A stretch of 64,000 nucleotides of DNA, from NCBI RefSeq assembly GCF_004402595.1, contig NZ_SOFY01000077.1:1-64000 (forward strand). The letters are read 5' to 3'. The position numbers and the translations under genes were made by a program. A model generated the notes under the pieces. The model was given only the letters and a program-made list of their open reading frames with translations, was not told the origin of the DNA and did not search any database. Positions within the stretch are counted from its first letter, which is position 1. Each line of letters starts with the position of its first letter. Source of the stretch: Cryobacterium shii (GTDB taxonomy: Bacteria > Actinomycetota > Actinomycetes > Actinomycetales > Microbacteriaceae). Of this stretch, positions 59,536 to 63,037 are shown piece by piece.

Positions 59536-61961
59536 ACGCGTGTCCCCTTCCGCGATCGACGCACCGCTCACGCTGCCGGCGTGGAGCGCCTTCTGGAGAG
59601 CTATCGAGCGGTGCCGCCGACGGCGTCCGTTCGACTCGCCAAGCCCACCTCGAACCTGTTCCGGTCACGCACGAAGCCGAACGCCAGGGGCCTCGATACC
59701 TCGGGTTTGACGGAAGTGATCGCGGTGGACCCGGATGCGCGCACGGCCGACGTGAGCGGCATGTGCACCTACGAGAGTCTCGTCACTGCGACTCTGATTC
59801 ACGGGCTGGCGCCGCTGGTCGTGCCGCAGCTGAAGACGATCACCCTCGGCGGCGCGGTCACCGGCCTCGGTATCGAGTCGACCTCGTTCCGCAACGGCCT
59901 GCCGCACGAGTCCGTGCTGGAAATGGACATCCTCACCGGTGCGGGTGAAGAGGTCACCGCCTCGCCCGACGAGCACGCAGACCTTTTCCGCGCCTTCCCG
60001 AACTCTTATGGCACCCTCGGCTACGCGGTGCGCTTTCGAATCGAGCTGGAGCCGGTGGCGCCGTTCGTCGAGCTCCGGCATCTGCGGTTCCACGCGCTCG
60101 CTGACCTGGTCGCGGCGACGGATGCCATCATCGCAACCGGTGTGCTGGACGGAGCTCGCGTGGACTACCTCGACGGAGTGGTGTTCAGCGCCGAAGAGAG
60201 CTGCCTCTGTGTGGGCACGCAGACCGCGGCGCCCGGGCCGGTGAGCGACTACACCGGCCAACAGATCTACTACCTCTCCATCCAACACGATTTCGGCATC
60301 AGGCACGACCGGCTCACGATCCACGACTATCTGTGGCGGTGGGACACGGACTGGTTCTGGTGTTCGGAGGCGTTCGGCGCCCAGCGGCCACGCATCCGAG
60401 CGCTCTGGCCGCGCACGCTTCGGAGCAGCGGTTTCTACTCGAAACTGATGCGCTACGAACAACGATTCCACATCGGTGATCGCATCGAGCGCCTCCACGA
60501 CCGCCCGCCCCGTGAACGCGTCGTGCAGGACGTCGAGGTGCCGATCGAGCGATGTGCAGACTTCCTCGGCTGGTTTCTCGACACCGTGCCGATCCAGCCG
60601 ATCTGGTTGTGCCCTCTGCGGTTACGCGGCCACAGCGGCTGGCCGCTCTACCCGATCCGGCCACAGGAGACCTACGTCAACGTCGGCTTCTGGTCCACGG
60701 TGCCGAGAAACCAGACGAGGAAACTCACCCTCTCCGAGATCCTGGAGATCCTCACCGGCGGGCAGCTTCCACTCCGATTCACCGCCTACGACGGGAGTTC
60801 GGCGGGCCCGCCCGACGCCCCGCTCGGACTGGAGCTGAGAACGCCGCGGGGTACTTACTATCTGGCAACCGGCCGCGGAGACCTGGGCCTGGCCCGCGCG
60901 TACATCGCCGGGGACCTCGAGGTCCACGGGGTGCACCCCGGCGACCCCTACGAACTCCTCAGGGCCCTCGCCGGCGACCTCGTCTTCAAGCTGCCGCCGC
61001 CGCGAGTGATGGCCACCATCATCCGTTCCATCGGTCTGGAGAACCTGCGCCCGATCGCGCCGCCCGCCCAGGAAGGGCCGCCGCGCTGGCGCCGCGTCGC
61101 CGGGGGGACTGCGGCACAGCAAGACCCGGGATGCCGAGGCCATCCACCACCATTACGACGTGTCGAATACCTTCTATGAGTGGGTGCTCGGGCCGTCGAT
61201 GACCTACACCTGCGCGTGCTACCCGCGCCCGGACGCATCGCTGGAGGAGGCGCAGGAGAACAAGTGCCGGCTGGTTGTCGAGAAGCTGCGGCTGAAGCCC
61301 GGTGATCGGCTGCTCGACGTCGGGTGCGGCTGGGGCGGCATGGTGCGCTATGCCGCTCGCCGAGGCGTCGAGGCCACCGGCGTGACGCTGTCGGAACAGC
61401 AGACCGCCTGGGTGCAGCGGGCCATCGCCGCAGAGGGCCTGACAGGTCTGGCCGAGGTCCGGTTCGGCGACTACCGAGACATTCAAGAGACCGGTTTCGA
61501 CGCCGTGTCGTCGATCGGGCTGCTCGAGCACATCGGTGTGCGCAACTATCCGTCGTACTTCGATTTTTTGCAGTCACGGATGCGTCCCGGCGGCCTGTTG
61601 CTCAACCACTGCATCACCCGGCCGGACAACCGATCCGAAGCGTCCCCTCGCGGGTTCATCGACCGCTACGTGTTCCCGGATGGCGAGCTCACCGGCTCGG
61701 GCCAGATCATCAGCGCCGCGCAGGATGTCGGGCTGGAGGTGATGCACGAGGAGAACCTGCGCACCCATTACGCGATGACACTACGCGACTGGTGCACCAA
61801 TCTGGTCGAGCACTGGGATGAGGCGGTCGCCGAGGTGGGGCTGCACACGGCGAAGGTGTGGGGCCTGTACATGGCTGGGTCGAGGCTCGCCTTCGAGACC
61901 GGTGGGATCCAGCTTCACCAGGTGCTGGCGGTCAAGCCGGATGCCGGTGGCGGCGTCGACC

Positions 61962-62983
61962 TGTTGTCCGTCACGTTGAATGACGATGAGGCTTCATCCA
62001 GTTTGACGATGAGTTTTGGGGGTGTGGTCGGCACGGTGACGTGGTGGTCGTCAGCGGTGACGGCGGGGATCGTCGTGGTCGTCACGATGACGGCGGTGTT
62101 CGGGCACGCGAGAGCGCCCCAGCGCTGGATCTCAGGTGCGCAAGGGTGGGGGCAGGAGCCGGCCTCGGGTGAACATGCCGATCAGCGTCCACACTGGCAG
62201 CGGGGAATCCCAACGCTGCTGGCAGGCCAGCGCCGCGCCGGCGAGGAGATTCAGTGCGTCCCCGAGCGGAGTCGGCCAGACCAGGTCGCGGTTCAGGATG
62301 TCAGGATCGGCACGGTACGCGTGCTGCACGCCCTGTTCCTGCAACCAGTCGGCGTGTGGTTCCCGCGCCCGCCGCAGCCAGCGGCGCACCGTGGAGACCG
62401 GGCGGTCCAGCTGGGCCGCGATCGTGCGGTGCCCGTCGCCGCGGGCCTTCGCAGCCAGGGCCGTGCCGATCACCTGGGCCGTGTCTGCCCGGCGCAGAAC
62501 CAGTCCGGCGGGCAGCAGCACGTGCGTGGCCGCGCAGGAGAAGCAGCGGGCACGGCGGGGTCGCACCGTGACCGGTGCCTCGCCGAGGCTGCGCACCCTG
62601 CGGATGCGGCCATACCCGCGCGGGCGTAACGCCCCGGGACAACCGGGACAGCCCAGCTGCCCCGCGTCGAGCAGGGCCTCGGCCTGCTCCGGCGAGGCGA
62701 CCACGATCATCGCGTCCGGCTCCATTCTGCTGCCACAAGGTCATGCCAGCAACTCTTGACTACCACACCCGGCCGGGGAAGGGGCCACCTCGTGTTGACG
62801 ATGTGGCGGCCGCCGTCACCGCGCCGACCAGCCCGGCCAGGCTCAACGCGACGACCCCGGCCCGAGCCTTCCTCCGAGACCATCGCTGCTCGTCACGATG
62901 ACGCCGCCGACGTCGACAACCCCATCGTCACCCACCGCGACGCACAACCCCGGCCTCATCGTCACCCACGGAGACGTACAACA
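61962..62983 (-). mobile_element. 1022-bp DUF6431 element with TG...CA ends, no transposase
   Basis: Left end TGTTGTCCGTCACGTT, right end ...ACGTACAACA. The 30-bp terminal inverted repeats (61962-61991 / 62954-62983) match at 24 positions. Target duplication CGTCGACC at 61954-61961 and 62984-62991 (10 bp if the adjoining TG is counted). TGACGATGAG occurs at 61981-61990 and, inverted, at 62955-62964 exactly the same distance from each end. Second, inner sites lie at 62004-62013 and 62921-62930 (TGACGATGGG). Its removal restores the tmsAB 3' end. The only gene is the DUF6431-like ORF; no DDE transposase is visible, so it must be mobilised in trans or be a decayed remnant. Confidence 0.85.
62132..62725 (-). 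CDS. DUF6431-like zinc-finger/HTH protein of a mobile element
   Basis: A 197-residue protein. MEPDAMIVVASPEQAEALLD is followed by a zinc-ribbon pair, CPGCPGALRPRGYGR and RARCFSCAATHVLLPAGLVLRR (two C-x2-C knuckles), then a homeodomain-like helix-turn-helix GHRTIAAQLDRPVSTVRRWLRRA. This combination I recognise as the DUF6431-type protein found beside transposition genes in actinobacteria. It is the only gene inside the 1022-bp element and should be a DNA-binding accessory or regulator of transposition. The element end sites (TGACGATGRG) are candidates for its binding. A catalytic activity is not visible. Confidence 0.72.
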   Translation of the reverse strand: MEPDAMIVVASPEQAEALLDAGQLGCPGCPGALRPRGYGRIRRVRSLGEAPVTVRPRRARCFSCAATHVLLPAGLVLRRADTAQVIGTALAAKARGDGHRTIAAQLDRPVSTVRRWLRRAREPHADWLQEQGVQHAYRADPDILNRDLVWPTPLGDALNLLAGAALACQQRWDSPLPVWTLIGMFTRGRLLPPPLRT

Positions 62984-63037
62984 CGTCGACCTGCCGCTGC
63001 GGCCGTGGTGGACGCCCTAGTCCGCCAAGGGAGTCGC

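Follow-up and report, generated by a model that had tools for sequence, protein, structure and literature searches.

Elements that lack a transposase are usually viewed as short-lived by-products in the course of losing their genes. The TnpB-only relatives of IS200/IS605 keep an accessory gene alone and depend on the transposase of another copy. In the IS481 family, element tips follow a TG..CA rule. Mobile insertion cassettes, such as MIC231A1 and mic-qnrD, have inverted repeats and a target duplication, carry no transposase gene and transport passenger genes (peptidase, antibiotic resistance). For MIC231A1 of Bacillus cereus, mobilisation in trans by the transposase of IS231A has been described (PMC3913671), and tnpB is termed an accessory gene in PMC8612924. 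Target duplications of IS481 elements are given as 2-15 bp, mostly 6 bp (PMC10045372), and ISLxc2 is one example of the family with TG..CA tips (PMC2516522). Here, we describe a compact element of Cryobacterium that shares with mobile insertion cassettes the inverted repeats, the target duplication and the absence of a transposase gene, but whose gene is homologous to one of a transposon's own. Among the papers found on DUF6431, mobile insertion cassettes, IS481, accessory-only elements and TniQ systems, none is about a DUF6431-only element, going by titles and the openings of abstracts.

The element occupies positions 61962-62983 of the window, i.e. of the whole 64-kb stretch of DNA that was analysed. 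It is 1022 bp long and has the TG...CA ends reported by the initial annotation (TGTTG at 61962, CAACA at 62983); alignments of copies stop at these bases. The tips are common to the window element and the other compact copies of Cryobacterium, one of nine copies being truncated by a contig end. The proposed 30-bp imperfect inverted repeats are there as well, since 24 of the 30 terminal positions are identical when read by eye, and an inverted-repeat search of the window gave a 38-nt arm pair (82%) that takes in part of the target duplication. This duplication is exact over 8 bp (CGTCGACC, left copy at 61954-61961, right copy at 62984-62991). It had been put at 8-10 bases; eight stand and ten do not, because the extra TG belongs to the left tip. 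The left end (61962-62131, plus strand, tip TGTTGTCCGTC) lies downstream of the DUF6431 gene and contains two TGACGATGAG sites, at 61981-61990 and 62004-62013. The right end (62711-62983, minus strand, tip TGTTGTACGTC) lies upstream of the gene and contains two TGACGATGRG sites on the minus strand, at 62955-62964 and 62921-62930. TGACGATGRG occurs four times in the window, always within the element, where 0.33 occurrences are expected, and none of 100 shuffles reached four. The mirror placement claimed for these pairs holds for the outer sites, which start at base 20 from each tip, and fails for the inner ones, which start at base 43 on the left and base 54 on the right. Each end also has one exact copy of the palindrome CGTCACGATGACG (62080-62092 and 62891-62903; expected 0.01). 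The element is single-copy: the search for other copies of its ends in this genome, which had been suggested as a check, returned only a 30-bp match.

The insertion broke a host methyltransferase gene near its 3' end (61160-61961, plus strand). The name tmsAB for this gene comes from the initial annotation, according to which removal of the element restores the 3' end. Indeed, when the element and one copy of the duplication are removed in silico, the host frame ends in ...DLPLRPWWTP, and the C-termini of the relatives that we fetched are, where readable, LRPWWTP-like. The gene is present in 42 other Cryobacterium genomes, and all of the 29 fetched loci align straight over the junction, i.e. 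their site is uninterrupted. Most of the alignments have a 3-base gap at the junction, where the window copy lacks one codon compared with most relatives, within a variable glycine-rich stretch. In the window, the host frame stays open from 61160 to 62629 and runs into the antisense strand of the element, for a total of 489 aa. The final residues of the methyltransferase are swapped for this long read-through, and the host protein may carry a foreign tail.

The DUF6431 gene, the one recognised gene of the element, lies at 62132-62710 on the minus strand and encodes 192 aa from the ATG at 62710. An alternative ATG five codons upstream (62725) is present in the window copy and absent from most copies. 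The protein belongs to the Pfam family DUF6431 (PF20020, 27.8 bits for a gathering cut-off of 26.6) and matches HTH_23 (26.3 bits, cut-off 24.6). No catalytic family of Pfam or NCBIfam reaches its cut-off: matches are to HTH domains, with weak sub-threshold ones to the HTH parts of other transposases. In the AlphaFold2 model (mean pLDDT 83.7), a predicted strand-rich N-terminus is followed by an HTH and C-terminal helices. Cysteine pairs suggest a zinc ribbon, the first pair being incomplete in some solo copies (L153, L158, L161). The sole reading frame had been described as a zinc-ribbon/HTH protein without a catalytic part, and these results concur. A fold search of the PDB with the model gave no match at E <= 0.001, a profile search of PDB sequences gave a best E of 0.054, and PADLOC gave no match to the window protein at E <= 0.01. 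We tried to assign a fold family with VIA-align, which found the helical half weakly similar to metal-dependent repressors (best Z 5.3, MntR) and gave about 4 for NrdR zinc ribbons, and rejected the assignment as too weak. Table 1 of PMC12323340 places a DUF6431 gene of Ruminococcus gnavus next to a DDE-type integrase/transposase, so that the association extends beyond Actinobacteria. We infer that DUF6431 functions as a transposition accessory.

A DNA search of 150 genomes of the family found, apart from the window itself, only short matches of up to about 80 bases, and we therefore used protein searches. With these, compact copies turned up in 8 of the 57 Cryobacterium genomes, ten in all (the window copy and nine further ones in seven other genomes), and they are 80-99% alike. 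More distant DUF6431 copies (about 45% protein identity) are found in other Cryobacterium genomes, and the complete ones sit in elements of 3357-3379 bp with the same kind of tips. In one of these full-size elements (L062), which the others match throughout, the order is DUF6431 (46% identical to the window protein), a 509-aa transposase and a 270-aa ATPase. The transposase contains rve (71.8 bits, cut-off 32.6) and Mu-transpos_C (31.8 bits, cut-off 21.7), with D, D and E residues that, read by eye, leave 35 residues from the second D to the E. The ATPase matches AAA_22 (75.6 bits, cut-off 27). Against the NCBIfam IS481 model (NF033577) the transposase scores 159.8 bits, under the cut-off of 224, and PADLOC gives the full-size relatives a TnsB match of 35 bits. 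No TniQ was found in L062, whose third protein matches just HTH_23 and DUF6431 at E <= 0.01, both under cut-off. Duplications of 5-6 bp flank 8 of the 10 full-size Cryobacterium copies tested. Compact and full-size forms have tips, outer site and order of parts in common: the first 50 bp of the window element align with the left end of L062 and its last 94 bp with the right end of L062 and L064. Longer relatives with a DDE transposase between the same ends, which the initial annotation had proposed to look for, are thus found as 3.36-kb elements with DUF6431, DDE transposase and AAA ATPase. Their rve and Mu-transpos_C transposase and their ATPase bear out the suggested kinship with Mu, Tn552 and IS481, and their shared ends support the idea that the element is non-autonomous and has kept an accessory protein that binds DNA.

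How do these elements compare with the described ones? Like the IS481/Mu/Tn552/Tn5053/TnsB-type elements, the full-size relatives have an rve and Mu-transpos_C DDE transposase with an AAA ATPase, the combination that defines the Tn5053/Tn552/Mu type and that L062 has, together with TGT...ACA-like tips and repeated end sites. Unlike them, they have three genes with DUF6431 first and no TniQ match, whereas TniQ is expected in the Tn5053 family. They agree with IS481 in TG..CA tips and in duplications within 2-15 bp, and fall short of it in the NF033577 score. The window element differs from all of these by having neither transposase nor ATPase; without its own transposase it is not an autonomous transposon, and with 1022 bp and a gene under purifying selection it is not a short non-coding MITE. 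It resembles a mobile insertion cassette in its inverted-repeat ends, its duplication, the lack of an internal transposase and the existence of a transposon with matching ends, i.e. the 3.36-kb three-gene elements. It differs in having no passenger gene unrelated to transposition, and also because the solo DUF6431 cassette is an old lineage across several families. It would behave as the mobile insertion cassette of a three-gene transposon that is IS481/Mu-like, the sole gene being the transposon's DNA-binding component. TnpB-only elements resemble it in life style alone: whereas DUF6431 appears to be a plain DNA-binding protein, TnpB is an RNA-guided nuclease.

Loci without a related transposase or ATPase (solo loci) were also found in Arthrobacter, Rhodococcus, Mycolicibacterium, Mycobacterium, Dietzia, one metagenome-assembled genome and two genomes of another family, a few DUF6431 loci outside Cryobacterium being truncated by contig ends. 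A search of 394 genomes of the class at E <= 1e-8 found DUF6431 in nine, one of them the window genome; apart from it, solo-type loci came from G530 and G523 only. We fetched 16 plasmid regions, of which 13 were annotated, and their neighbourhoods mostly differ, except that L203 and L217 are one site and that L208 and L210 have neighbours in common. One of these loci (L209) adjoins a separate set of TnsA, transposase and ATPase, and another (L216) is a three-gene element. The 212-kb plasmid pMSPYR101 of Mycolicibacterium gilvum Spyr1 (NC_014811.1) carries a solo (L207) and a three-gene element (L231) together, which makes them a natural candidate pair of solo and full-size forms. Surveys of 28 Rhodococcus-group and 198 Mycobacterium-group genomes gave 47 fetched loci (all 17 Rhodococcus-group places and 30 of the 59 Mycobacterium-group places), which we classed by protein profile. 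A related transposase lies downstream in none of the 17 solo-class loci, some of which are pieces of one place, and in 25 of the 30 three-gene-class loci. Here, related means L062-type transposase and ATPase; other transposase genes lie near, and outside, the solos L204, L209, L211 and L212. Of the five three-gene-class loci without a transposase, one is truncated by a contig end 123 bases after the gene (L256), and the Mycobacterium-group loci L253 and L262-L264 lack a related transposase in the 1.3-1.5 kb downstream. The latter might have been a second independent solo lineage within the three-gene class, a candidate that we set aside since they yielded no convincing tip pair with duplication; they may be decayed copies. 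With L165 and L191, they are transposase-less loci of the three-gene class, and hence transposases are also lost by ordinary decay.

Are the solo elements mobile? A tip pair with an exact 5-9-bp duplication bounds 22 of 33 solo loci, with sizes of 1021-1112 bp. The exact duplication is absent in the other 11, some of which have clear tips, and one insertion (L159, L160 and L207, which have common surroundings) is counted three times among these misses. The tip consensus was derived from the tested elements themselves, and the independent evidence is thus the duplication and the control: a tip/duplication score, set more strictly for this count, was reached by 20 of the 33 loci and by none of 400 mismatched flank pairs. 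The 33 loci are those remaining once L083 (contig end), L173, L210 and L213 (unreadable frames), L217 (same site as L203) and L152-L154 (same loci as L081-L083) are set aside. Near-identical solos tell the same story. Over about 1.05 kb, the Rhodococcus copies L203, L205 and L218 agree at 95-97.5%, and no similarity was found outside the element. Similarity is likewise confined to the element among L204, L206 and L209 (95-96.5% identical), between L214 and L215 (96.1%) and between the two copies of G186 (99.2%), and the alignments stop within about a dozen bases of the tips. As far as sequence comparison goes, the solo element is mobile as a unit, bounded by ends and flanked by duplications of its own.

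In a tree of 65 DUF6431 proteins, a single branch with support 100/98 splits 29 solo from 36 three-gene sequences. The solo side includes Cryobacterium, Arthrobacter, Rhodococcus, Mycobacteriaceae, Dietzia and others, and its proteins have diverged to about 48% identity between families. The tree is unrooted and does not give the order of the two forms in time. Rows were labelled solo by the absence of an adjoining related transposase, and the tree then tests whether this label corresponds to one group. In an earlier tree, 30 of 31 solo rows fell in one clade (98/98), and none of eight unclassified rows fell within it (L144, L148, L151, L165, L168, L191, L197, L201). These eight are left out of the 65-protein tree, as are the long-branch L183 and L070, L072, L160, L171, L199 and L207, mostly near relatives of kept rows; L239, L245 and L248 entered it with rough starts. 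Neither tree includes L088, L092, L149, L173, L200, L210 and L213, whose DUF6431 frames are unreadable. The median dN/dS is 0.27 for Cryobacterium solo genes (28 pairs, dS up to 0.43) and 0.24 for Cryobacterium three-gene ones (28 pairs). It is 0.31 in Arthrobacter solos (3 pairs), 0.23 and 0.52 in two Rhodococcus solo groups (3 pairs each, at low dS) and 0.28 in one Mycobacterium solo pair; a separate earlier count includes one short pair at 3.07, with a single synonymous difference. Judging from these ratios, solo DUF6431 is under purifying selection and about as constrained as its counterpart in complete transposons.

Purifying selection is also compatible with other roles. DUF6431 might serve the host cell or the plasmid, e.g. 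as a transcription regulator, in an otherwise ordinary mobile insertion cassette. The weak likeness of its helical half to metal-dependent repressors and the many solos found on Rhodococcus and Mycobacterium plasmids would be in line with this. Yet a homologue heads complete transposons, before the transposase and the ATPase, and the ancestral role is therefore most likely in transposition. The patchy presence in Cryobacterium and the different neighbourhoods of most copies are also at odds with a service to the host, which we regard as unlikely.

The compact form is collinear with the three-gene element (left end, DUF6431, right end), with transposase and ATPase missing. Hence, it might be a passive derivative, internally deleted and occasionally moved in trans, in which a leftover DUF6431 has no role and decays. 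Some copies have decayed, namely the frame-shifted copy of G152 and the broken solo genes L173, L210, L213 and L252. But 8 of the 10 Cryobacterium copies are intact, one other being merely cut by a contig end, the solo genes form one branch spanning several families, and their dN/dS is like that of complete transposons. This explanation is already strained by the selection and tree results, and we give it a small chance. The initial annotation had named a simple internal deletion as a finding that would speak against its own reading: structurally this is what we see, but as a deletion of this copy it is contradicted by the tree branch, the many hosts and the purifying selection. Tree and selection together indicate that the compact form is an old separate lineage and no fresh deletion.

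If the solo elements are moved in trans, their ends should bear the mark of the transposase that moves them. We compared bases 6-32 of the ends without gaps, which makes some identities too low where two ends are shifted by one base. Where there was no exact duplication, the end was positioned from the tip match only, and a few such ends, like the upstream one of L208, may be in the wrong place. One locus (L158) yielded no end, and 23 different solo and 20 three-gene end pairs remained after removing identical ones. Upstream, solo ends resemble the three-gene ends of the same host group at 0.74 in Cryobacterium, 0.66 in Arthrobacter and 0.71 in Mycobacteriales, compared with 0.45-0.60 for other groups and 0.49-0.56 between solos of different host groups. 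Downstream, the same-group values are 0.72, 0.74 and 0.69, and solos of different groups reach 0.51-0.63; here, the Arthrobacter solo ends are nearer to the Cryobacterium three-gene ends (0.81) than to those of Arthrobacter (0.74). None of 2000 shuffles of the three-gene labels matched the observed difference, in rows that are related and thus not independent. The matching is imperfect: with more three-gene ends added, 41 of 56 ends have their nearest three-gene end within their own host group. Over 35 bases, the downstream end of L081 (Cryobacterium luteum) and L082 (sp. Y82) matches a Cryobacterium three-gene element at 97%, while other Cryobacterium solos reach about 57-60% ungapped; an exchange of ends is possible in these two. 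The DUF6431 genes thus sort into solo and three-gene forms, and the ends sort mainly by host. It looks as if the ends have tracked the local transposase, which is what one expects under mobilisation in trans. Either parallel change or end exchange would give such a pattern. Since the TGACGATG ends vary with the local three-gene elements and not with the DUF6431 branch, the transposase is the likelier reader of these sites, rather than DUF6431.

The distribution of possible partners speaks against such mobilisation. We searched 27 genomes that have a solo-type DUF6431, be it intact or broken, for a related transposase, and only 9 of them gave an intact one (G171, G186, G591, G592, G595, G596, G603, G606, G689). 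Among the 27, G530, G523, G591, G592, G595, G597 and G598 were searched with the L062 transposase only, and G602, G603, G605-G608 and G689 with the L167 transposase only; G712, with a broken solo-type gene, is outside this count. In Cryobacterium, 2 of the 8 solo genomes also have an intact three-gene element, where 1.4 are expected by chance (10 of 57 genomes). In the window genome, all that is left of such a transposase is a 255-residue remnant, within a 1351-bp internal three-gene remnant (L123, contig C80, 2052-3402) that holds the ATPase and the C-terminal half of the transposase and is 88-89% identical to full-size copies. The three-gene element that left it is a possible former partner of the window element. 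With intact related transposases in only 9 of 27 genomes, any partner is often absent now, and we assume horizontal transfer between partner-bearing hosts.

The lack of enrichment of intact full-size elements in solo genomes would also fit a cassette with a regulatory or immunity function, in which the solo DUF6431 protein, bound to the ends of full-size elements, would repress or poison their transposition and so shield the host or the element. The solo protein retains the HTH and most zinc-ribbon residues of the three-gene form, and the ends of both forms are similar. Yet nothing specific indicates repression, and all of the nine genomes listed above except G689 have solos alongside intact three-gene transposases, which makes this role rather improbable. 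That DUF6431 itself catalyses the movement, unaided or helped by an unlinked enzyme of the host, is very hard to believe: it is the only recognised gene of the window copy and no related transposase was found in some solo assemblies, including one of two contigs (G198), but its 192 aa comprise zinc-ribbon-like strands, an HTH and helices without a catalytic domain in Pfam or NCBIfam, and the full-size relatives add a DDE transposase.

The explanation that we favour, with a probability of roughly 0.6, is that of a satellite transposon, moved in trans by a full-size transposase and ATPase while supplying its own DUF6431. Full-size relatives that have a transposase and similar ends are present in the genomes examined. 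The DDE transposase and the AAA ATPase of such a transposon would act on the solo element because its ends are of the same kind, and of the third component, the DNA-binding protein DUF6431, the solo element would bring a copy itself. Selection would then keep DUF6431 because the protein helps the element that encodes it. It might act preferentially on its own DNA, at the ends or at the target, and recruit the foreign transposase or ATPase. Solo elements would spread by horizontal transfer between partner-bearing hosts, as we assumed above. One might go further and speculate that the solo DUF6431 elements form an ancient class of satellite transposons, hyperparasitic ones that kept one conserved adaptor and refitted their ends, by recombination or convergence, to the resident full-size transposase. 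This extension is tentative and we would bet slightly against it. If true, the refitting of ends lets a transposase-less unit persist and spread across many actinobacterial families.

The solo lineage has apparently lived long without a transposase, given the divergence of its proteins between families and the strict conservation of the helper gene. It thus provides a natural 1-kb system to understand why a non-autonomous element keeps a protein, be it for cis preference, recruitment or targeting. It bears on the role of DUF6431 and on whether satellites refit their ends to new transposases, and wherever a solo and a full-size element were found together in a genome or on a plasmid, the question can be put to a direct test.
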